IMG/VR virus record: IMGVR_UViG_3300047445_000068
Location: 1-22,848 of that record
DNA from: a virus
Reading direction: 5' to 3' (one strand)
DNA: 22,848 bases
In this document: positions 2,738-20,894 of the stretch, piece by piece
Position numbering within the stretch: position 1 is the stretch's first letter
Layout: each line of letters opens with the position of its first letter
The notes under the pieces: model-generated
What the model was told of the DNA's origin: nothing
Seen by the model: the letters and a program-made list of their open reading frames with translations, nothing else
Databases searched by the model: none
Translations under genes and position numbers: made by a program

Positions 2738-3127
2738 TCACAGGATGAAGAAGAAGACGAAGAAGGCGACGGCTACCAGCCCGAGGAAGATCAGGGCAGC
2801 GGTTGAGCCGTCATCCTCCTGCGGTGGGATGGTGTTGGCTGCAGGCGCAGCCTGTTGCTGCTGCTGGTTGTTGGACTGCATCCACAGCAGGGCGATCCAC
2901 GGCAGCGCCGAGGTGAACGTCGAGGGCGCAGAGGGACGGTAGGCCGGCGCGCTTGGCCGATAGGATGGCCGATAGGACGGCGTCGAGCGGAACGACGGTG
3001 TCGACCTGAAGGATGGCGAGGCGCGGAAGCCACCCGAGAAGCCACCAGCGCGGCCTCCGAATGAACCAGCGGTGGCCGGCGAGATCGCGGCGACGAGAGC
3101 GGTGGCGAGGAGCAGTTTCTTGATCAT
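2738..3127 (-). CDS. secreted or membrane-anchored low-complexity early protein, 129 aa
   Basis: The N-terminus MIKKLLLATALVAAISPATA is a clear Sec signal peptide with probable cleavage after residue 20. A Gly/Phe-rich stretch (GSFGGRAGGFSGGF) follows, then Ser/Pro/Arg repeats (FRSTPSFRSTPSYRPSYRPS), a short hydrophobic segment (about 73-84), a glutamine run (NNQQQQQ) and a C-terminal membrane span (about 108-129, rich in Phe). The product should therefore sit in or across the inner membrane with a low-complexity periplasmic part. Its start overlaps the upstream stop (ATGA). A signal-peptide protein in a phage early operon suggests envelope modification or superinfection exclusion, but this is inference. 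Similar low-complexity proteins occur in bacterial genomes, so host origin is possible. Confidence 0.78.
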   Translation of the reverse strand: MIKKLLLATALVAAISPATAGSFGGRAGGFSGGFRASPSFRSTPSFRSTPSYRPSYRPSAPAYRPSAPSTFTSALPWIALLWMQSNNQQQQQAAPAANTIPPQEDDGSTAALIFLGLVAVAFFVFFFIL

Positions 3128-3318
3128 GTGAGGTTTCCATCCAAGAGGCAGATCAGGGCTTCACGTTCGAAGACGTCAGCGCCGAAGGTTGGGGCAGCGA
3201 TCCAGTCGCGGACGATCTTGATGACCGTGTCCGACGAGATCGAGGTAAGGGCAACGGTGCGGGTGAGCAGTTGGTAAAGCTCGACCGCGTCCATGGTGGT
3301 GACGTCGGGCCGGGTCAT
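3124..3318 (-). CDS. hypothetical early protein, 64 aa
   Basis: The start ATG 3318 overlaps the upstream TGA (ATGA), and its own stop overlaps the next ATG in the same way. The sequence MTRPDVTTMDAVELYQLLTR is followed by a helical stretch and the segment DTVIKIVRDWIAAPTFGADV, ending LICLLDGNLT. It appears all-alpha and acidic to neutral. A longer frame upstream has no coupling or ribosome-binding support and is rejected. No family recognised. Confidence 0.7.
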   Translation of the reverse strand: MTRPDVTTMDAVELYQLLTRTVALTSISSDTVIKIVRDWIAAPTFGADVFEREALICLLDGNLT

Positions 3319-3677
3319 GCTGGCACCTTGCGGGCGAGCAGATCGGCAGCCATTGCGGCCTCGTCGATGTCGTCGAAGTGGCGACTGTCGTGCGGCTCGT
3401 TGAACTGGACGCGGCGCAGGAAGGCCGGGATGAACTCCCAATCGTAGGGGACCAAATGATCCTCCTCGCCGGTCTCCCGAACGGCCTCCCAAACGCGTTC
3501 AGCGATGGGTGCCAGAGCGATGCACACATGGCGCATCTCGCAGGTGCCCCATTGGTCCCACCGAGCGTGGAGCGGCAGTGCCCATTCGTGGCCGGGCTTG
3601 CCCTCTTCGCGGTACTCGTCGAGCATGGCCTCCCAGAGGCACATGGCGGCTTCGCAGATTGAGGTGTCCATGGTCAT
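3315..3677 (-). CDS. hypothetical early protein, 120 aa
   Basis: The start ATG 3677 overlaps the upstream stop (ATGA); a second Met two codons later is possible. The protein (MTMDTSICEAAMCLWEAMLD) is acidic, helical, and rich in Trp and Glu. The block WDQWGTCEMRHVCIALAPIA sits mid-protein and the C-terminus is a Glu/Asp/Ala helix (HFDDIDEAAMAADLLARKV). Three cysteines are spread without a zinc-finger spacing. Acidic small early proteins in phages are sometimes DNA mimics or inhibitors, but I see no signature that would justify that call here. Confidence 0.72.
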   Translation of the reverse strand: MTMDTSICEAAMCLWEAMLDEYREEGKPGHEWALPLHARWDQWGTCEMRHVCIALAPIAERVWEAVRETGEEDHLVPYDWEFIPAFLRRVQFNEPHDSRHFDDIDEAAMAADLLARKVPA

Positions 3678-3910
3678 GCCTCGTCGTTCAGGGACCGCAC
3701 AGCCGCATCAATGTCGGCCTGCAGATCGGTTGTGGTGATGATTTTGAGTTCCTTGGCCTTCCAGCCCTTGTCGCGGTACTCGTCGCGCTCGGCCTTCACG
3801 GTGTCCAAGTCGTAATCCCCGAAGGCGATGCCCCAAGGGTTGTCGGCTATGTGGTCGCCCTCATGGACCACCAAGGTGTAGTAGGGGCGCGGCTGTTTGG
3901 TCCGGCTCAT
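3674..3910 (-). CDS. hypothetical early protein, 78 aa
   Basis: The start ATG 3910 (MSRTKQPRPYYTLVVHEGDH) has GGAG six bases upstream and overlaps the stop of the 32-aa membrane peptide (ATGA). The longer frame upstream is Arg-rich read-through of another gene and is rejected. The middle holds WGIAFGDYDLDTVKAERDEY, a strand-helix pattern in which the helix is highly charged. The C-terminus ends with a helix (DLQADIDAAVRSLNDEA). No family recognised; unknown role in the coupled early cluster. Confidence 0.72.
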   Translation of the reverse strand: MSRTKQPRPYYTLVVHEGDHIADNPWGIAFGDYDLDTVKAERDEYRDKGWKAKELKIITTTDLQADIDAAVRSLNDEA

Positions 3911-4005
3911 GACGGGCTCCGAAGGGTTGCGATGAAGAACACGGCGCAGAACGTGATCAGACCCGACCACAGGACGGCGGCGACGATTGTTTCGGTTTGA
4001 GGCAT
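3907..4005 (-). CDS. micro-ORF: 32-aa single-span membrane peptide
   Basis: It starts at ATG 4005, three bases after the stop of the 139-aa gene, with GGGGAG upstream, and ends in a TGA that overlaps the next ATG by four bases. The product is MPQTETIVAAVLWSGLITFC then AVFFIATLRSPS: a single hydrophobic helix with a short polar N-terminus and a basic C-terminus. The correct spacing at both ends makes it credible despite its length. A role in the membrane is inferred. It and the 29-aa peptide at 1945-2034 are the two tiny membrane proteins of the cluster. Confidence 0.6.
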   Translation of the reverse strand: MPQTETIVAAVLWSGLITFCAVFFIATLRSPS

Positions 4006-4008
4006 GGG

Positions 4009-4428
4009 TCAGCACTCCCCGGCTGGTTTGAGGGTGGCGAGATCGAGGGTGGCGATGGGCTTGGCAGCGGTATGCCTGAAGGCGACTTGCCAGTTGCCCG
4101 CGACGACGTGTTCGGGGTCCACCTCGTAGACCCGCAGGACGGCTAGACCGCCTGCCTGCATCGCTTCGCGGCCAGCCTTCGACCTGAACCAGCGAACCAG
4201 TTGCGTCTTGGACCGGAAGCCGAAATAGAAGTCGTGGTAGTCCGCGCGGCAGGCGTTGAAGAGGGCAAAGAGCGCGGTGCCATGCTCGCCAGAGCTACGC
4301 GGTCCCGGTGGATCGTAGGCGCTGTGGTCCCCACTGACACGCGGATGGCCGTCATAGCGGCAGACAGCGCCGGTTTGCCAAGGTCCCTCGCTAGGGAATG
4401 CAGGGTGTTCGATGCGGTAGACGTTCAC
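4009..4428 (-). CDS. hypothetical early protein, 139 aa
   Basis: I place the start at GTG 4428, which overlaps the upstream stop (ATGTGA) and has AGGGGG five bases before it. The longer frame to 4650 is Arg/His-rich and overlaps the upstream gene. The protein begins VNVYRIEHPAFPSEGPWQTG, followed by a Pro/Gly/Ser loop. The central block DYHDFYFGFRSKTQLVRWFR leads into a helix and a strand (GGLAVLRVYEVDPEHVV), and the last third has the pattern of strands (NWQVAFRH). The Tyr/Phe-Gly-Phe plus charged helix is typical of small phage proteins of unknown function. No catalytic motif. Confidence 0.72.
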   Translation of the reverse strand: MNVYRIEHPAFPSEGPWQTGAVCRYDGHPRVSGDHSAYDPPGPRSSGEHGTALFALFNACRADYHDFYFGFRSKTQLVRWFRSKAGREAMQAGGLAVLRVYEVDPEHVVAGNWQVAFRHTAAKPIATLDLATLKPAGEC

Positions 4429-6687: not shown

Positions 6688-8397
6688 CTAGAAGAACCGA
6701 GGGGGTGACTGTAAGGAGCCCCCGAGGGCGTTCTCCATGAAGCGAGCCAGCTCCGCATCGAGCAGCTCCTGCTTCCTCTGTTCGACAGCCACAGTCGTGT
6801 TCCTAGCCATCCATTCGATCCAGTAGGCGACACAGCCGGCCACAGCGTCCAGTCTGTCGTCATGAGCCAGGGCACCACGGTTCTTGGTGATCCGGGTCAT
6901 CTGGTAGAACAGGCGGAACTTGTTGACCTCGTCAGGGATGAAGGCAGCGGTGCTGTCGTAGTCCCATTCGACCACCGAGGAGCAGACCACGAGCCGGTGC
7001 TGGTTCATGATCGGTTCGAGGGTGTCGATGATGCGGGCTTCCTTCTGGGCCTTGGACCACTCAGCGTCCTCGATCAGCACGGGGTACCGCAGGGCTGCCC
7101 GAGAGCGGAGGAGCTGGGCGAACATGCCGTCGCCGTAGTTGGGCTCGACCTTGATCGTGTTGACGCCCTGCTGCTTGGCGCAGTCGAGGATCATGTCCAG
7201 CACCTTGTCGGCGTAGCCGTGGCCACGGACAGCGCCCACAGCGGTCAGGTAGAGGATGCCGTTGAGCATCTTGACCACGGCCCACGCGGTCTCGTCCTTG
7301 CCCCGGCCCGAGGGGTCGATGAACATGCACGATCCCTCGTAGTCGAGGAAGTCCTTGTCGTGGAAGATCGGGCGGTGGTAGCGGTCACCCGGCAGCCCGA
7401 CCATGGGCAGCTTCTCGTTGACCTGTTCAGGGCCTGAGCCCCAGACGACCTCTCTCGGGGCCTTCTTCGGGTTCAACCCCATGACGATCAGATCGGACAG
7501 CTTCAGCGGGAACCTGTCCTCGTCCGACAGGCTGGTGTCGAGCATGAACTGCAGGGAGAAGCCTGAGCGGCCATAGGACAGCTCACGCTCGGTCAGGTCG
7601 ATCTCGTTGAACCGCTCGGGGTCCGTCGTGCTGCCCACTATGTCGGGCTTCTCGTCGAGCATCCTCCCGAACATCGGGGCGAGCCTCGAACCGTACTTGG
7701 CGCGGCGCTCCTCGTCGGGATAGCGGGCCGGCCAGATGCGAACCACGTAGCCGCGATCCGGCAGGAGGTTGTAGATCGACATCTCGGTCTGCGGGGTGCC
7801 AAGGTAGATGATGCGGCCACCGGGCGACAGGACGGCGTCGAACTCTTTGATCTGTTCGGCCAGCTTCTCGCGCTTCAGGTGGGTGTCGGAATTGTTCGGG
7901 ACTTCGATGTCGTCCGCGATGATGTAGTTGGCGCGCGATCCAGCGATCTGCGAGGTGATGCCTAGCGACTTCACCGAGGGGCTGTGGGACGCACGGGCGG
8001 GGCCGACGTCAAATGCTACCTTCGACTGCCGCTGGTCTGCTGTGGGCCTCAGGTGGGCCAGCAATTCCATCTCAAAGATGAGGCGCATGGTGAAGGTGGA
8101 GAAGTCATCGGAGCGCTGCTTGGACGCCGAGATCACGAGGACCTTGGCCTGCGGGTCGCAGTAGAGGAGCCAGCACACGAATGCCGACGTGACCCAGCTC
8201 TTGCCGACGCCACGGAAGGCCTCGATCACGAGACGCTTGGGGCCGTGCTGTAGGAACGATGCAATGTCGTACTGGACCTTTGTCGGGTCCGGCAGATTGA
8301 GGTGCTTCCACACGACGTAGAGGAAGTTGCGGAAGTCCAGAAGGGGGTCGTTCTGCGTCGACAGGTGCGTCGAGGCAGCGAGGGTCTGCTTGGTCAT
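6688..8397 (-). CDS. terL: large terminase subunit (DNA packaging ATPase-nuclease, gp19-like), 569 aa
   Basis: It powers DNA translocation into the prohead and cuts concatemers. The N-terminal ATPase shows the adenine/Walker A region FRGVGKSWVTSAF (61-73; K66), Walker B YIIADDIE (158-165; D162, D163) and coupling motif YLGTPQTE (198-205). The C-terminal RNase H-like nuclease shows MFIDPSGRGKDETAW (D361), a conserved KVEPNYGDGMF (416-426) and AHDDRLDAVAG (511-521; D513/D514). Length is close to T7 gp19 (about 586 aa). The start ATG 8397 has AGGAG directly upstream. It is the last late gene; the genome junction follows. The 101-base leader carries alternative hairpins. All catalytic residues I can place are present. 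Confidence 0.97.
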   Translation of the reverse strand: MTKQTLAASTHLSTQNDPLLDFRNFLYVVWKHLNLPDPTKVQYDIASFLQHGPKRLVIEAFRGVGKSWVTSAFVCWLLYCDPQAKVLVISASKQRSDDFSTFTMRLIFEMELLAHLRPTADQRQSKVAFDVGPARASHSPSVKSLGITSQIAGSRANYIIADDIEVPNNSDTHLKREKLAEQIKEFDAVLSPGGRIIYLGTPQTEMSIYNLLPDRGYVVRIWPARYPDEERRAKYGSRLAPMFGRMLDEKPDIVGSTTDPERFNEIDLTERELSYGRSGFSLQFMLDTSLSDEDRFPLKLSDLIVMGLNPKKAPREVVWGSGPEQVNEKLPMVGLPGDRYHRPIFHDKDFLDYEGSCMFIDPSGRGKDETAWAVVKMLNGILYLTAVGAVRGHGYADKVLDMILDCAKQQGVNTIKVEPNYGDGMFAQLLRSRAALRYPVLIEDAEWSKAQKEARIIDTLEPIMNQHRLVVCSSVVEWDYDSTAAFIPDEVNKFRLFYQMTRITKNRGALAHDDRLDAVAGCVAYWIEWMARNTTVAVEQRKQELLDAELARFMENALGGSLQSPPRFF

Positions 8398-8429
8398 TTG
8401 CTCCTAGTTGTTCAGGGCGTAGAGGGGGT

Positions 8430-8490
8430 CAGGAGAGGCTCTGCGAGCTTGGGGCATCGGTGGGCCGGGATGGACCTGAAGCCTCTCCTG
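8430..8490 (-). promoter_or_regulatory. mutually exclusive hairpins in the terL leader
   Basis: An 11-bp perfect inverted repeat (CAGGAGAGGCT at 8490-8480 and AGCCTCTCCTG at 8440-8430 on the minus strand) encloses 39 bases. The 5' arm can instead close a local hairpin, AGCCTC-AGGA-GAGGCT (8495-8480), so the two structures compete. A 9-base direct repeat of AGGCTCTGC also flanks the element. It begins two bases after the SGNH gene stop and ends about 30 bases before the terL start. It could attenuate or process the message. Confidence 0.5.
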
Positions 8491-8498
8491 AGGCTCTG

Positions 8499-9752
8499 CT
8501 ACCGCACGAAGCGGGTGGGATCGACAGCTCCGCTCGACTGGATCGAGGCGTAGCCGAATGGGGAGGCGTGGAGACCGTCAGCCGTCCACTTGCTGGCCGT
8601 GCCGTCGAACTTCCACTTGCCGCTGTTGCGGGCCGTTTCGATCACGTCAGCGATCTCGAAGTAGCCAGAGCTTCCCGCTACGCCGGCACGGATGGCGTCG
8701 TTGTAGGCTGCGATCTGGGCAGCGTTCGAGTTGAGCGTCTGGCCGGTGGCTGTGGCCCAGAGGTCGCTGGAGGTCGACGATGGCGAGGTCGTAGAGGTGA
8801 ACCTGACCTTCGACGCGAAGTAGCCGAGGATGGTCTGCTGTTCAGCCAGGACGGCGGCGGCTGTCTTGTTCTGGCCGGTGCCCGACCGTAGCGCGTTGAT
8901 CGCGGTTTGGACCACGACGTGCGAGCAGTACTGCTGGAGGGCCTGCCTGCGGGTGCTGGAAGCGATGAACTCGGACAGGCTGTCACCCGCCGATCCTGCG
9001 TTGATGTAGCCCATTGCAGGGCCTAGCGAACGGGCCAGCTCGCCACTGTCACCAGCGGCATTGAAGAAGTCACCAAAGCCTGCCACCCGGCTGTCGCCAA
9101 TGAGGAGGACCGAGGGCTTCCGCGTGTTGGCAACGATGGCCGAGGGGTGGAAGATCGCGGCGTCGTTGGTCGTCTTGTTCGGGGTCAGAGTGCCACCCAT
9201 CGTCTTATCGGTGATACCCGACGCCGCGTACTCGTAAGCCTCGCCGTTGGCGAAGTCACAGGTCCAGAAGTTGGACCCCGAGGTCGCGTCAGAGAACACG
9301 ATGGAGTGTGTGGCGACCGCATACGTGCGGACCCAGAAGCCTGCCCCGTTGGGGATGTTGACGTTGACCCAGTCGGACAGCAGCGGAACGGTCCCCGTGG
9401 CTAGGCCCGAGGTGGCCCCTGCGAACAGGACTTGGGTGAACACCCCAGCAGGGTACTCAATGGCTGCCTTGTAGGAGATGTTGCCGGTGACGCCGATCTC
9501 GGTCTTAGTGCTGGTCCGATACCAATACCAAGCGGGCAACTCGATCTTGAGCGAGGTGATGTCGTCCCGAGCGATGTGGTAGGTGCGACTGTTGGCCTGC
9601 TTGTTGGTGGTTGAGAGGTTGGTCGGTATGCGGCACTTCGTGGCGACTTGCCCGAGGTAGAGCGAGGCCAGCGGAGTGGAGGCGGTCGTCAGCAAGATGT
9701 TCCGAAGGACGCCTTTAAGGACGACCCTCGGAACCGCTCTAATGTGAGCCAT
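8499..9752 (-). CDS. SGNH/GDSL hydrolase-like protein (putative carbohydrate esterase), 417 aa
   Basis: SGNH hydrolases remove acyl groups from glycans or lipids. The C-terminal half shows the ordered blocks: LLIGDSRVAGFGD (217-228; nucleophile S221), a Gly-containing block II (YINAGSAGDS, 249-258), QTAINALRSG (282-291; N286 in the GxND position) and DGLHASPFGY (392-401; D392 and H395). Residues 1-200 look like a beta-rich stalk or binding domain with no signal peptide. The gene lies between the two terminase subunit genes, where T7 has its Rz spanin gene 18.5. Its start overlaps the upstream stop (TAATG), so it is co-expressed with late genes. A virion-associated deacetylase acting on capsule or exopolysaccharide is likely. 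It could also be a free enzyme. Confidence 0.85.
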   Translation of the reverse strand: MAHIRAVPRVVLKGVLRNILLTTASTPLASLYLGQVATKCRIPTNLSTTNKQANSRTYHIARDDITSLKIELPAWYWYRTSTKTEIGVTGNISYKAAIEYPAGVFTQVLFAGATSGLATGTVPLLSDWVNVNIPNGAGFWVRTYAVATHSIVFSDATSGSNFWTCDFANGEAYEYAASGITDKTMGGTLTPNKTTNDAAIFHPSAIVANTRKPSVLLIGDSRVAGFGDFFNAAGDSGELARSLGPAMGYINAGSAGDSLSEFIASSTRRQALQQYCSHVVVQTAINALRSGTGQNKTAAAVLAEQQTILGYFASKVRFTSTTSPSSTSSDLWATATGQTLNSNAAQIAAYNDAIRAGVAGSSGYFEIADVIETARNSGKWKFDGTASKWTADGLHASPFGYASIQSSGAVDPTRFVR

Positions 9753-10012
9753 TAGTCGAACAGGTCAACCACGACAGTGCCCGACGTGAAGCCGCCCGTC
9801 TTGACGCCGATACGGAAGTACCAAGCCGAGCCGGCAGAGCCGGTGTTCTCGACCGGGGCGGTGAAGCTTGCGACGTCAAGCCAAGTGACCTGATCCTTGG
9901 ACCTCTGCAGGACCACGGTTGCAACGAAAGTGCCACTGACGGTGATGTCGAAGGAGTTGCCCGGCTGAATGAGGAGGGGCGTGGTGAAGGTGTTCTGGGC
10001 CGTGATGTTCAT
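9752..10012 (-). CDS. small beta-sandwich phage structural-type protein, 86 aa
   Basis: The start ATG 10012 overlaps the terS stop (TGATG) and the stop overlaps the next start (TAATG), so it is coupled on both sides. The sequence is nearly all strands: SGTFVATVVLQRSKDQVTWL, then a Pro/Thr turn (FTAPVENTG), then AWYFRIGVKTGGFTSGTVVV. The pattern of an aromatic residue after a strand, RIGVKTG, and repeated Thr-Val strands is like small Ig-like or decoration-type proteins that are common next to phage tail genes. I infer a virion role, perhaps paired with the following SGNH protein. No enzyme motif. Confidence 0.7.
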   Translation of the reverse strand: MNITAQNTFTTPLLIQPGNSFDITVSGTFVATVVLQRSKDQVTWLDVASFTAPVENTGSAGSAWYFRIGVKTGGFTSGTVVVDLFD

Positions 10013-10281
10013 CAGTTTCTGTACCGGTCTTGGTGTTCGGAGCCGTCAAACGGCAGATTGGCGACGATGTCGTTCACGGCCTTGTTGGTGCCTGGAGCGA
10101 CGGTCGTGCCGGTGTGCTTGAGGAAGTTCAGGATGACCGTCAGGGACGCCGCGTCGGGCGTGATCTTGACGGCCTCTCCGGTCTCCTTGTCGACCACTGT
10201 TCGGCCATCCGTCAGGATAGTCTTGAGCTGGCCGGCGAACGTGTCGAAGAGGTCTTCGAGGGCGGTCGAGTTGGTCTTCAC
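10012..10281 (-). CDS. terS: small terminase subunit (DNA maturase A, gp18-like), 89 aa
   Basis: It recognises phage DNA and loads the large subunit on concatemers. The start is GTG 10281, which overlaps the holin stop by four bases (GTGA). The longer frame is read-through of the holin gene. At 89 aa it equals T7 gp18 in length. It begins VKTNSTALEDLFDTFAGQLK (Val read as Met). The middle has the pattern ITPDAASLTVILNFLKHTGT, typical of this family in T7-like phages, followed by a polar C-terminus (LPFDGSEHQDRYRN). Order holin-TerS matches T7 17.5-18. Separation from terL by two genes is unusual. Confidence 0.85.
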   Translation of the reverse strand: MKTNSTALEDLFDTFAGQLKTILTDGRTVVDKETGEAVKITPDAASLTVILNFLKHTGTTVAPGTNKAVNDIVANLPFDGSEHQDRYRN

Positions 10282-10490
10282 TTGGTGTCCTTTCGGGTCA
10301 TGTCGCGGACCTTGGCGACGATCTGGACGACGAGCCAAACCGTGCCGAGGAGGGGTGCGATCAGAGCTGCGCCGTCAGACGCCATGTGGAGCCACGGAAG
10401 CCAGACAGCGCTGGTTACTGCGGAGACGGCGACCGCAGCGGTGGTGTTATCCACGGCAGTAGTTCCTGTGATTAGAGCGATTGGGGTCAT
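10278..10490 (-). CDS. holin-like membrane protein (gp17.5-like position), 70 aa
   Basis: Holins make the timed lesion in the inner membrane that lets endolysin out. The start ATG 10490 overlaps the upstream stop (ATGA); a start five codons earlier lacks this coupling. Two hydrophobic segments are visible: residues about 13-32 (AAVAVSAVTSAVWLPWLHMA) and about 40-57 (LIAPLLGTVWLVVQIVAKV), followed by a basic C-terminal tail (RDMTRKDTK). This two-span layout with a charged tail and the position just before terS fit T7-like type II holins. No endolysin or spanin gene is in the window. Another membrane function cannot be excluded. Confidence 0.8.
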   Translation of the reverse strand: MTPIALITGTTAVDNTTAAVAVSAVTSAVWLPWLHMASDGAALIAPLLGTVWLVVQIVAKVRDMTRKDTK

Positions 10491-10903
10491 AGTTCGGAGG
10501 CCCATAGCCAGAGCGCGTCAGTCTGCTCCGGGGTGATTGAGAAGGTCGCGCCGAGGGCGTCGACGAGGGGGTGGGTGCGGCGGAAGTAGCTGGCGTATCG
10601 CCACTCGACCATGCCGGCTGGATCGTTCACCAGCTTGAAGTCGACATCAGCCTCGTGGATGCCAATGGATAGGAGCGCCAGACGGAGCTGCCTCGCGGTG
10701 AGCGATGGCAACGTGGGTCTGACCTCCTCAGGGGTTGGCGGGACGAAGGGGGTAGCGTCCACCGAGGCAGCCGCGAAGATGTCCCTGCCATACTCCTCAG
10801 TGTCATCTGGAGATGCCGTGAAGGGTATCCAGCCATAGACCGGATGGTCGATCTCGCAGTCGATGGTGCCGGCGCTGTTGAAGGCGGCGTTGCGGTGATC
10901 CAT
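10487..10903 (-). CDS. tail-fibre assembly-like protein, 138 aa
   Basis: The start ATG 10903 overlaps the stop of the second fibre gene (TAATG). The longer frame is fibre read-through. The N-terminal half (DHPVYGWIPFTASPDDTEEY) has the pattern seen in tail-fibre assembly proteins. The C-terminal domain (LTARQLRLALLSIGIHEADV, then DPAGMVEWRYASYFRRTHPL, then ITPEQTDALWLWA) is a helical module that recurs in many phage tail and tail-assembly proteins. Placement directly after a fibre gene supports a chaperone or fibre-tip role. It is coupled to both fibre and holin genes. The exact mode of action is inferred from neighbours. Confidence 0.72.
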   Translation of the reverse strand: MDHRNAAFNSAGTIDCEIDHPVYGWIPFTASPDDTEEYGRDIFAAASVDATPFVPPTPEEVRPTLPSLTARQLRLALLSIGIHEADVDFKLVNDPAGMVEWRYASYFRRTHPLVDALGATFSITPEQTDALWLWASEL

Positions 10904-12213
10904 TAGGCGATCCTTAGAAAGAGGGTCGTTATGCCTGTGCCACCAACCACACCCATCGTCCTCCATGTCCCCGAGAGAACTGAGCTTGTTTGGACTTGGT
11001 TGACGTTGGAGTATTTGAGGCTGGACCCGGCGATGGTCTGACCCGGCACCAAGGAAGGCGAAGCCACGGTGACCACGCACATCGCATACGTTCCGATTGC
11101 TCCCGTACCCATGGCTGCCACAATGTCAGCGACCGCAGACGCGGCGGGGATCGGGCGAAGGTAGTTGTCAGCGCCAGCCCCGAGGGCGTTCTGAGTGACG
11201 AAATAAGCCCCGGTGGACCCGGCAGTGCTATTGTACTCGGACCGAAACAGGCGCGTGGTGATGTCGCCGCTGGCGTCACGAATGGGGACGGTGTTGACGG
11301 CGTTGACAGCGGAACCTTGGGAGCCATCGAGCATATCAGCGTCAAGACCCGAGCCAGAACCATCGTTGGCCGAGGTCCAGATCAGGTTGCCGAACGCGTA
11401 GGCATCGCTGTTGGCGACGTCGAGCTGTAGCGCGTGTGGTCCTTCCCAGGTCCCGTCGTTGTTCCTGTCGACTAGGACGTAGAAGTTGTTCGAGTTGGCG
11501 TGGACCCAGAAGTCATAGGCACTCGCGTCCACGTCCTGCATGTACAGCATCGGGCCGCTGTTCGAGATCGTGAGAGTGCCCGTGAACGTCTTGGCGGTCT
11601 GGGTCACTGGAAGCCTAGCGTCCGCGATGGTGCCAGCATTCAGGTTGGTGGCATTCTGGTAGAAACTACCTTGCTGCCCATCGAGCAGATCGGCGTCGAG
11701 ACCAGAGGCCGCTCCGTCATTAGCTGCGGTCCATACCGTGCTACCGTTCAGCGTGAATGAGCCTGAAGTCGAGAAGGTGATGCCGCCAGTTCCAAGGCTT
11801 TGGATGCTCAAGGACCCATTGACGCCGGGGTTCCTGATGATGCGAGCGCTGAAGTCGGCGTTCGTGTCCTCGGAGTGGAAATCGATGTAGCTATTCCGGT
11901 CCCCGGTAAGGCTGCCACCAATCTCGATACCGGGCACGTTGGTGAGGGCTTGTTGGAAGTAGCTTCCGTGCTGGCCGTCGAGCAGATCGGCGTCTAGGCC
12001 TGTGCCTGCGCCATCCACGGTCTTGATTGCAGTAAGTATCTCGGTAGGGGTCTGGTCCCCAGTGGCACCAGCTTCTATGCCATCCAGCTTGACCTTGTCG
12101 GCAGCAGACATAAGGCCAGTGCGGGTGGAGGAGACGAGGGCCGGCCCGTCAAAGCCAGCCCCCTGTGTTTCCCTACCGAGGTCGGATGCACCGACGTCGA
12201 TAGAACCTGTCAT
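10903..12213 (-). CDS. second tail fibre protein with LDG repeats, 436 aa
   Basis: It probably contributes to host receptor contact. The N-terminus (MTGSIDVGASDLGRETQGAG) is Gly-rich and includes LMSAADKVKLDGIEAGA (34-50), a motif found in many phage fibres. The motif GLDADLLDGQHGSYF recurs at about 72-86, 171-185 (GLDADLLDGQQGSFY) and 289-300 (GLDADMLDGSQGS), as in T4-type fibre shafts. The C-terminus ends SVLSGTWRTMGVVG...LFLRIA, sharing its pattern with the end of the first fibre. The gene starts one base after the first fibre's stop. It has no collagen repeats. It may be an accessory fibre or a tip subunit. Confidence 0.85.
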   Translation of the reverse strand: MTGSIDVGASDLGRETQGAGFDGPALVSSTRTGLMSAADKVKLDGIEAGATGDQTPTEILTAIKTVDGAGTGLDADLLDGQHGSYFQQALTNVPGIEIGGSLTGDRNSYIDFHSEDTNADFSARIIRNPGVNGSLSIQSLGTGGITFSTSGSFTLNGSTVWTAANDGAASGLDADLLDGQQGSFYQNATNLNAGTIADARLPVTQTAKTFTGTLTISNSGPMLYMQDVDASAYDFWVHANSNNFYVLVDRNNDGTWEGPHALQLDVANSDAYAFGNLIWTSANDGSGSGLDADMLDGSQGSAVNAVNTVPIRDASGDITTRLFRSEYNSTAGSTGAYFVTQNALGAGADNYLRPIPAASAVADIVAAMGTGAIGTYAMCVVTVASPSLVPGQTIAGSSLKYSNVNQVQTSSVLSGTWRTMGVVGGTGITTLFLRIA

Positions 12214-12214
12214 G

Positions 12215-13729
12215 TTATGCGACCCTTTGGATCAAGTATGTGTGGCCATCGGTGACGACGGTCTGGTTCTGGCCCTGAAGGTGTGTAGTGGTTCCCAAGA
12301 CGCCACGGCTCCTCCACGTCCCGCTCAGGGTCGTCGTAAGGGTGCCGTTCATGGTAGTCGGGAAGGACCCATCAGCAATGTAGTAGACCATCGTGTGACC
12401 AATCGGGTACACGGTCTCAGCACCGGACGTGCCAGTGTAGACGATTGCTGCACCAGCCGGACCCTGTGGGCCGGTGTCGCCCTGCGGACCACGCGCACCA
12501 GCAGGACCAGTCGGGCCGGTAGGACCAGCAGGACCCTGAGAACCAGCCGGACCAGCGTTGCCCTGCGGACCCGTGGGACCGGTAGGACCGGAGGGACCAG
12601 CCACACCGTTCGCACCCTTGGCGACAACCTTCTGCCAGTACGTGGTGTTGTCCGGCTGGACGTTGATCGTCTGCCCGGTGCCGACGCGAATGTAGCTCTC
12701 GCCAGACCAGTAGACGACGTCCTTCGGGTCGTAGTTCGAGGTGCCGACATAGGTGCCCTTCCAGAGCATCCCGTAGGTGCCTGCGGGGCCAGTAGCGCCG
12801 GCTGGGCCGGTCGGACCAACGACACCCTGAACGCCCTGAGGACCAGTCGGACCAGTCGGGCCTGCGGGGCCAATCGGGCCGGTCGCGCCGGTCACACCTT
12901 GCGGACCCTGAACACCCTGCGCACCTTGTCCAAAGGCAACGCCTGCGGACCAGTCGCCGGACGTGGCCGAGAGCTTCCAGTACATGAGGCCCTCATTGAG
13001 GGACAGGTAGGCGAAGCCCTTCGGCTGGGTGTCGTAGGTGGCCCGGTCGGTGCCGGTGCCGAATGCGTTCGGGTTGAAGGACGGGCCAATGACACCCTGC
13101 AAGCCCTGCGGACCCATGATGCCCTGCGGACCTTGCGGACCAACCGGGCCTTGCGGGCCAACCTGACCTGTCGGACCCTGAGGACCCTGAATGCCAACCG
13201 GGCCTTGATCGCCAACAGGACCCTTGTCACCTTCAGGACCACGCGGGCCGGACGGCATGTTGTCCTCGGTGTAGATCATGAAGGCACCTTCGCTGTCGAA
13301 GCCCATGATCTTGTTGCGCCGATCTTCAATCGACGGGATCACGAGGTTGACGCGACCTGCATCACTCTCAGGTGCGATGATGACGCCGGTCGCAATGTGG
13401 ACCGCGACGTCCTCGGCCTCTTGGGCGACGTAGAGGGCCTGAAGCTGTGCCCTGTTGAGGTCGACCGCACGGAGCGAAGAGCCGTCAGCGATGGTCACGA
13501 TGGGGGACGCGGAGGGCGTCTCACGCGCGATCTTGACCTTCTTGCCGGTCGCCGGGGCAGTGTTGAAGCGGATGGAGTAGACGCCCATCCAGACGAAGTC
13601 GCCGTAGGGCACACCGTCGATGTAGACCTTGACGTGATCACGGTCGAGGTAGGGGAAGTCGAACGTCCAGTCTTTCGTCGCGCCATCGGCGTCGTAGAAG
13701 ACCATGGACTTGAGTATTGAGGTGGCCAT
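12215..13729 (-). CDS. tail fibre protein (gp17-like N-terminus) with collagen-like shaft, 504 aa
   Basis: It attaches to the tail and reaches for the host receptor. I start it at ATG 13729 (MATSILKSMVFYDADGATKD) with AAGGA upstream, four codons inside a longer TTG frame. Residues 1-150 match the pattern of the T7 gp17 tail-attachment domain (WTFDFPYLDRDHVKVYIDGV, VDLNRAQLQALYVAQEAEDV). Three Gly-X-Y collagen-like stretches follow, at about 161-217, 269-318 and 372-427. Two small domains interrupt them: 218-268 (YLSLNEGLMYWKLSATSGDW) and 319-371 (WKGTYVGTSNYDPKDVVYWS, like carbohydrate-binding modules of the CBM5/12 type). The C-terminal tip (428-504) ends with the shared LSGTWR motif. A terminator-like hairpin precedes the gene. 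Confidence 0.93.
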   Translation of the reverse strand: MATSILKSMVFYDADGATKDWTFDFPYLDRDHVKVYIDGVPYGDFVWMGVYSIRFNTAPATGKKVKIARETPSASPIVTIADGSSLRAVDLNRAQLQALYVAQEAEDVAVHIATGVIIAPESDAGRVNLVIPSIEDRRNKIMGFDSEGAFMIYTEDNMPSGPRGPEGDKGPVGDQGPVGIQGPQGPTGQVGPQGPVGPQGPQGIMGPQGLQGVIGPSFNPNAFGTGTDRATYDTQPKGFAYLSLNEGLMYWKLSATSGDWSAGVAFGQGAQGVQGPQGVTGATGPIGPAGPTGPTGPQGVQGVVGPTGPAGATGPAGTYGMLWKGTYVGTSNYDPKDVVYWSGESYIRVGTGQTINVQPDNTTYWQKVVAKGANGVAGPSGPTGPTGPQGNAGPAGSQGPAGPTGPTGPAGARGPQGDTGPQGPAGAAIVYTGTSGAETVYPIGHTMVYYIADGSFPTTMNGTLTTTLSGTWRSRGVLGTTTHLQGQNQTVVTDGHTYLIQRVA

Positions 13730-13739
13730 TTGTTCCTTC

Positions 13740-13774
13740 AAATGAGAAAGGCCCCCGGTGGTTAGCCGAGGGCC
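13740..13774 (-). terminator. terminator-like hairpin after the gp16-like gene
   Basis: On the minus strand GGCCCTCGG (13774-13766) pairs with CCGGGGGCC (13758-13750; one T-G wobble) around the loop CTAACCA, 23 bases past the gp16 stop. It is followed by TTT and then CTCATTT (13746-13740). The T-rich 3' side makes it the best factor-independent terminator in the window. The same stem recurs at 17523-17548. Confidence 0.75.
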
Positions 13775-20429: not shown

Positions 20430-20894
20430 TTATGACCTCAATCTTGCAAATTCGTGGAAGGGACGCTTCTCAACGCCGAACTCATCGTGGGTCCTCAGGA
20501 ACGAGAAACCCATGCGCTTGAGCCAGCGGATGTGCGTAGTGTTGCGAGCGTCTATGTGGTTGCCGAGGAGTGGGCGAACCCGGTGCAGCCTCTTGAGCCA
20601 CTTAGGGGTGAGCGTGATCAGCTCTCGGCGGTATTTCATGATGGCCGGCGTGGAGACCATCCAGATGATCCCCATGTGAGGATTGCCCTTGACGGGGTCG
20701 ACGCCGAACAGGCCGAAGACTTCGCCTGAAGGTTCCACGCCGGCCCACACGTAGTTGCCCTGCTGAACGAGCAGCGGCAGGACAACCTCAGGCTCCATGC
20801 CCAAAGCTGCCCTGCATTCGTCTCGATCTGCTGACCGCAATCGCGGGGCCAGTGAAGTAGCGTCGGCCACTTTGGCCCTGCGAATTGTGATCAT
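20430..20894 (-). CDS. gp13-like GNAT-fold virion assembly protein, 154 aa
   Basis: T7 gp13 (138 aa) is needed for particle assembly and has a degenerate acetyltransferase-like fold. This protein begins MITIRRAKVADATSLAPRLR, the usual first strand and helix of a GNAT domain. It ends with NTTHIRWLKRMGFSFLRTHD (118-137), which aligns with the T7 gp13 block NTSHIRFLKTIGAVFHEEY. The block around residues 60-82 (FGLFGVDPVKGNPHMGIIWM) is the central strand pair. A clear acetyl-CoA loop (R/Q-x-x-G-x-G/A) is missing, so catalysis is doubtful. Start and stop are coupled to neighbours (TAATG). The identity is well supported by order and motif. Confidence 0.88.
   Translation of the reverse strand: MITIRRAKVADATSLAPRLRSADRDECRAALGMEPEVVLPLLVQQGNYVWAGVEPSGEVFGLFGVDPVKGNPHMGIIWMVSTPAIMKYRRELITLTPKWLKRLHRVRPLLGNHIDARNTTHIRWLKRMGFSFLRTHDEFGVEKRPFHEFARLRS

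Follow-up and report, generated by a model that had tools for sequence, protein, structure and literature searches.

Why a T7-like phage should carry a gene for a putative surface enzyme between the genes for its two terminase subunits is the question raised by the stretch of viral DNA considered here, a window of 22,848 nucleotides (IMG/VR record IMGVR_UViG_3300047445_000068, positions 1 to 22,848). This fragment comes from a rhizobial-type T7-like phage. Read on the minus strand, its genes follow the order collagen-type tail fibre, second fibre ORF, fibre-assembly-like ORF, ORF at the holin position, terS, an 86-aa gene that we call BS86, the 417-aa payload gene X next after it, a gap of 101 nt, and terL (Table 1). 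A preliminary description had placed the 417-aa ORF between the terminase genes, and the matches of its neighbours to PHROG 38 (TerL) and PHROG 891 (TerS) bear this out. The coupling by TAATG to the upstream 86-aa gene, also described then, agrees with the sequence of the BS86/X junction (GACTAATGGCT), and the TerS/BS86 junction is a TGATG stop-start overlap (CTGATGAAC). The same order of terS, an 87-aa BS86 relative, an SGNH gene and terL is found in genes 60-63 of Mesorhizobium phage Lo5R7ANS (vB_MloP_Lo5R7ANS, Pairvirus), with identities to the window of 76% for the BS86 relative, 62% for the SGNH gene and 83.5% for TerL, and the arrangement is therefore not a product of chance. Elsewhere in the window, the two fibre-type ORFs form a tandem pair (10903-13741, minus strand), and a 154-aa GNAT-acetyltransferase-like ORF (20430-20894, minus strand) lies directly behind the gene for tail tubular protein B (assigned by eye); small ORFs like it occupy the same place in relatives and stand behind a tail gene in two other podoviruses, L077 and L099 (by eye).

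Table 1 Features of the payload locus and neighbouring genes in the window
Feature	Position	Strand	Basis or remark
X, 417-aa two-domain SGNH esterase payload	8499..9752	-	PHROG 8480
N-terminal tag of X, residues 1-27 (MAHIRAVPRVVLKGVLRNILLTTASTP)	9672..9752	-	common to payloads with unrelated bodies
N-terminal beta domain of X, ~residues 30-176	9225..9665	-	AlphaFold2 secondary structure; full-length match to two-domain esterases
SGNH domain of X, ~residues 205-410	8523..9140	-	conserved residues, AlphaFold2, Foldseek, PDB profile
S221 codon of X	9090-9092	-	
N286 codon of X	8895-8897	-	
D392 codon of X	8577-8579	-	
H395 codon of X	8568-8570	-	
BS86, 86-aa beta-sandwich protein, constant partner	9752..10012	-	TAATG overlap with X, TGATG overlap with TerS
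Terminase small subunit	~10012..10281	-	PHROG 891, E 6.6e-9; start placed from relatives, ORF open to 10338
75-aa ORF, holin position (T7 17.5)	10278..10505	-	holin assignment from position alone
RNA element with a three-way junction, in the gap from X to terL	8407..8492	-	covariation
Terminase large subunit	6688..8397	-	PHROG 38, E 3.5e-111; Pfam PF22530 (T7 terminase RNase H), E 2.1e-33
Tail fibre, T7 tail N-domain and collagen repeats	12215-13741	-	Pfam
Second fibre ORF, DADLLDG repeats	10903-12213	-	

By sequence and modelled fold, the payload of the window is an SGNH esterase. X matches the profile of PHROG 8480, 'lysophospholipase L1-like esterase', with an E value of 2.6e-70. The Pfam family Lipase_GDSL_2 is matched only below threshold (19.9 bits, E 0.0011, where the cut-off is 32.9 bits), yet the PHROG 8480 match and a sequence-profile match to PDB entry 9kr0 (E 1e-16) are strong, and X is thus a divergent member of the SGNH/GDSL group. 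The hallmarks of that group are present, namely the serine in GDS, the asparagine of block III, and the aspartate and histidine of block V. The catalytic residues first proposed (S221, N286 and D392/H395) hold up across 26 diverse homologues, in which G219, S221, N286 and H395 never vary and at least 90% retain D392. An AlphaFold2 model of X alone, built from the 26-sequence alignment, has a mean pLDDT of 91.5. Behind an N-terminus modelled with low confidence over most of residues 1-23, it shows a beta domain followed by an SGNH domain with the expected alpha/beta/alpha fold; in Foldseek the whole chain resembles two-domain SGNH esterases (9kr1, E 3e-18; 7toh, E 1e-13). The same two-domain architecture is shared over the full length by a polyvinyl alcohol esterase (PDB 9kr0/9kr1) and the acetyl xylan esterases PbeAcXE and CspAcXE (Foldseek E 3e-18 to 2e-12), although these are bacterial enzymes with 12-14% identity to X and without the phage tag described below. 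Deacylation of a host glycan would be the natural reading of the modelled fold, and the substrate is not predictable from these data.

The model of BS86 is all-beta (AlphaFold2, pLDDT 96.5), in keeping with the beta-sandwich first proposed for the 86-aa gene. Foldseek gave no match to a solved structure below E 1e-3, and among viral proteins the best match (E 6e-7) is to a phage protein without a name; as neither sequence nor Foldseek points to a confident PDB relative, the molecular function of BS86 cannot be read from its fold. Two candidate relationships were discarded: a kinship with the papain family, for which the PDB sequence search gave chance matches only, and a natural BS86-SGNH fusion in L167, which looked plausible by eye and received an hhalign probability of 1.6%.

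BS86 relatives were found at 80 loci in a scan of viral contigs, and a search of genome contigs added three further loci only. The gene lies between terS and terL in the window and about 15 contigs of a Rhizobium-type T7-like group, several of them near-identical. In about 14 others, of which a few hold only one of the two flanks, it lies between the scaffold and major capsid genes. Rhizobium phage RHph_I20 is among the latter; as in the window, its BS86 relative is followed directly by a PHROG 8480 esterase (E 6e-154), but it differs in its scaffold-major capsid position, in its tag (MSISPSLWSSASRLAMG) and in an extra 294-aa fibre-like gene. Where relatives have no BS86, the terS-terL gap is short (~125 nt in Paadamvirus, ~75 nt in Pasto) or otherwise filled, in LUZ100 by a putative endonuclease, and RHph_X3_9 has an SGNH gene downstream of TerL with no adjoining BS86. 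The cassette between scaffold and capsid genes is also seen in L180 (NZ_RZTT01000109.1), a 15,688-base contig that is filed under a Mesorhizobium genome and is a T7-like phage fragment.

What follows BS86 varies. The payloads include several kinds of PHROG 8480 esterase and GDSL esterases in which the partner domains are different ones; one protein of 816 aa has its GDSL domain at the N-terminus, and another payload is 957 aa long. A further family of about 400 aa (L021, L022, L030, L031 and L033) matched nothing in Pfam or in the PDB profile search, and its PHROG matches were no better than E 0.009; a lectin reading of this family was weak, being drawn from a C-terminal pattern seen by eye, and was set aside. 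The payload bodies fall into separate BLAST clusters, and across them the first ~27 residues recur (MAHIRAVPRVVLKGVLRNILLTTAS in the window, MAHIRAVPRVVLRGVLRDILLTTSS on the other body of L022, MAVTTPVLQSVLRSVLWGTSS in L055). An HMM of this tag, trained solely on the tags of the non-SGNH ~400-aa payloads, retrieves, among others, SGNH payloads from the window (E 1.6e-13), L009 (2.7e-9) and L055 (4e-5); all of its finds sit directly behind BS86, and its best match outside the cassettes has an E value of 1.0. In L001, L038 and L039 the likeness of the tag to the consensus is only loose, which speaks against the display cassette proposed below. The tag of Lo5R7ANS is shorter and glycine-rich (MGILMPVLRRTLWVPPGGGGG). 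L104 has a PHROG 8480-like esterase (2910-4160) that follows an SU10-type portal gene directly and has no BS86; its N-terminus is of SPIRSP type (MTLVGLPLHSPIRSPYYAP), perhaps another docking tag.

Alignment of the window with L022 locates the exchange: DNA identity is 93% in BS86, stands at 87% over the 75 nt with which X begins, then falls to about random, and returns to 89% in terL. The enzyme does vary, as the idea of a swapped gene had it, but the exchanged part is the body after residue ~27 and not the whole gene. Sequence comparison shows swaps in both directions. L008 has the enzyme body of the window (86% identity) in the scaffold-major capsid position, together with a BS86 of the L033/L034/L036 lineage and a tag nearest to that of L034. 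RHph_I20 (L011) and L053 share a different tag, identical in its first 16 residues, on unrelated bodies, and the RHph_I20 body is about 80% identical to those of L045 and L046, two cassettes that differ from RHph_I20 in BS86 lineage and in tag. Among 18 cassettes, the distances of BS86 and tag are correlated (rho 0.43, P 0.002), whereas those of tag and body are not (0.13, P 0.14). The tag thus appears to track the BS86 lineage and not the payload, and linkage of the adjacent tag and BS86 could explain part of this pattern.

These comparisons bear on two further suggestions of the preliminary description, which had taken the terS-terL interval for a swappable site and the 86-aa protein for a binding partner perhaps acquired with the enzyme. 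The payload is indeed exchanged among relatives, but the unit is not tied to the interval between the terminase genes, given its other home between scaffold and major capsid genes. Similarly, the pair recurs at both positions and the tag follows BS86, but BS86 is not swapped along with the enzyme and stays constant while the enzyme changes. Both suggestions are thus supported in part, and better than a single window could show.

We propose that BS86 and the gene behind it form a two-gene display cassette with a lineage-matched docking tag and an exchangeable body that acts as a surface tool, a reading to which we assign a probability of roughly 0.6. BS86 would be the small constant beta-sandwich protein of the cassette, and the next gene would encode a tool that acts on the host surface. 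The initial ~27 residues of this tool would serve as its docking tag and would fit either the BS86 of the same cassette or the place that BS86 takes on the virion. The body of the tool would be replaced by recombination just behind the tag, and the stop/start overlaps at terS-BS86 and BS86-X would couple translation. In the window, the SGNH esterase would most likely strip ester-linked groups (O-acetyl or similar) from host exopolysaccharide, capsule or O-antigen during adsorption. In rhizobia, acylated exopolysaccharides matter for symbiosis. Attachment to the virion, binding of the tag to BS86 and deacetylation of such a substrate are what we infer from the esterase fold and its catalytic residues, from a tag that is conserved, follows BS86 and is found on unrelated bodies, from the BS86-like domains in PHROG 376 tail proteins, and from homologous esterases fused to fibres. 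A broader version is doubtful, though worth stating: BS86 might serve podoviruses in general as a small socket on the particle, perhaps located on the head, with each lineage's socket reading its own ~25-residue tag and any tagged downstream protein being displayed. A location on the head is conceivable because one of the two homes of BS86 lies between the scaffold and major capsid genes, and if the socket existed, nature would have in these two genes a system for displaying esterases and other surface tools on the capsid or the tail.

Three other readings, with BS86 as a chaperone, the esterase outside the virion or a role in lysis, all rank below the display cassette. The first of these would make BS86 a dedicated assembly chaperone that binds the nascent tag and is absent from the virion, like tail-fibre assembly proteins. 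Translational coupling, the one-to-one pairing of BS86 and payload, and a tag that follows the BS86 lineage would all be expected of such a protein; stand-alone BS86 relatives, however, adjoin tailspikes and terminase in other podovirus-like contigs, and some have no tagged neighbour. Furthermore, the PHROG 376 tail proteins of L077 (4951-7530, residues 325-416, E 4e-25) and L099 (4981-7581, residues 319-410, E 2e-17) each contain a BS86-like domain, which suits a structural part better, and we regard the chaperone as unlikely.

One may also postulate that the esterase is no part of the particle and acts inside or on the infected cell, for instance by altering surface glycans against superinfection. 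Some PHROG 8480 relatives do start with an apparent signal peptide (e.g., L162 and L171), which suggests that the family need not always be virion-borne. X, however, has no classical signal peptide as read from its sequence, its N-terminus having charged residues every 3-4 positions; several unrelated bodies carry the tag, and homologues of X in other genomes either form fusions with collagen fibre or fn3/Ig modules or are annotated as 'minor tail protein'. This makes a purely intracellular or cell-surface role quite improbable.

We give still less credence to a shared N-terminus that merely marks a recombination hot-spot, that is, homologous DNA kept by the exchange mechanism with no docking peptide in it. 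The breakpoint just behind the tag and the physical linkage of tag and BS86 would follow from such a mechanism, but the tag peptide is under purifying selection (dN/dS 0.26-0.33), and the tags of the window and L031 are still recognisable as protein where their DNA identity of 36% is no more than that of shuffled sequence. That selection has preserved the peptide on bodies unrelated to one another argues for a function of the tag. Least probable of all is a lysis enzyme in place of the Rz/Rz1 spanins, whose genes T7 keeps in its terS-terL gap: X shares that gap, a holin-position neighbour and a lysophospholipase-like family name, but the same cassette stands between scaffold and major capsid genes in ~14 contigs, the payloads include a non-esterase family, the nearest folds are polymer and glycan esterases, and Pfam and PHROGs gave no Rz/Rz1 family match for X or BS86, whose predicted folds are those of an esterase and an all-beta protein.

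Between the payload and terL, outside the swapped part, the window and its relatives share an 86-nt RNA element. It has a 13-bp stem in which 10 pairs are changed on both sides, and two inner hairpins with the conserved motifs GGTC and CCCCAAGCTC complete a three-way junction; its covariation score is 0.471, against 0.214 when shuffled and at most 0.114 when slid. The element occupies the same place in L001, L009, L010, L021-L024, L028, L030, L031 and L038, strong covariance-model matches to it occur only before terL in the phage group of the window, and Rfam gave no match in the window. It is possibly an RNA-processing or translation-control element, the former being suggested by the RNase III site that T7 has near gene 18.5.

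The genes and their position were already on record in Lo5R7ANS, where they are annotated as hypothetical (GenBank) or esterase (RefSeq) with no cassette described; our literature search found no paper on this phage and none on phage proteins named 'lysophospholipase L1-like esterase'. A known modular principle appears to take a new form in the tagged cassette, and what is new here is BS86 as the constant part of a two-gene cassette at two genomic positions with a variable tagged payload. The cassette would predict surface-acting tools among unannotated genes, namely in any tagged gene directly behind BS86.

SGNH esterases on podoviruses have precedents in the tailspikes of Pectobacterium autographiviruses and in G7C gp63.1, for which O-antigen deacetylation has been demonstrated (PMC7693777). 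In PP1 and POP72 the SGNH gene is at the genome end, and the SGNH proteins of Q19, PP47 and PP81 are fused to a T7 fibre N-domain, whereas X has the short tag only (PMC7693777). The closest parallel for the tag is in the T7-like phages K1-5, KP32 and KP34, whose second receptor-binding proteins have unrelated enzyme bodies but share a conserved peptide of 7 to 29 residues at the N-terminus; in the model for these phages, the peptide docks the enzyme to a T4gp10-like domain that belongs to the first fibre protein or an adaptor (PMC6872550). Payloads of the window type likewise have a short conserved N-terminal peptide over variable bodies, and by analogy with these phages the tag would dock the enzyme to the particle. 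A Pfam search (E up to 1) detected no T4gp10-like domain in the fibre ORFs of the window, with a T7 tail N-domain and collagen in the first and nothing in the second, and BS86 is the obvious candidate for the dock or adaptor. Phage host range is driven by modular exchange of receptor-binding enzymes, and the docking systems compared here use a domain inside the main fibre or an adaptor; the candidate dock of the window differs in being a separate, translationally coupled 86-aa protein in a cassette that has a second genomic position. A free-standing partner of this kind, its tags matched to the lineage, would give phages of nitrogen-fixing rhizobia a second and compact docking solution.
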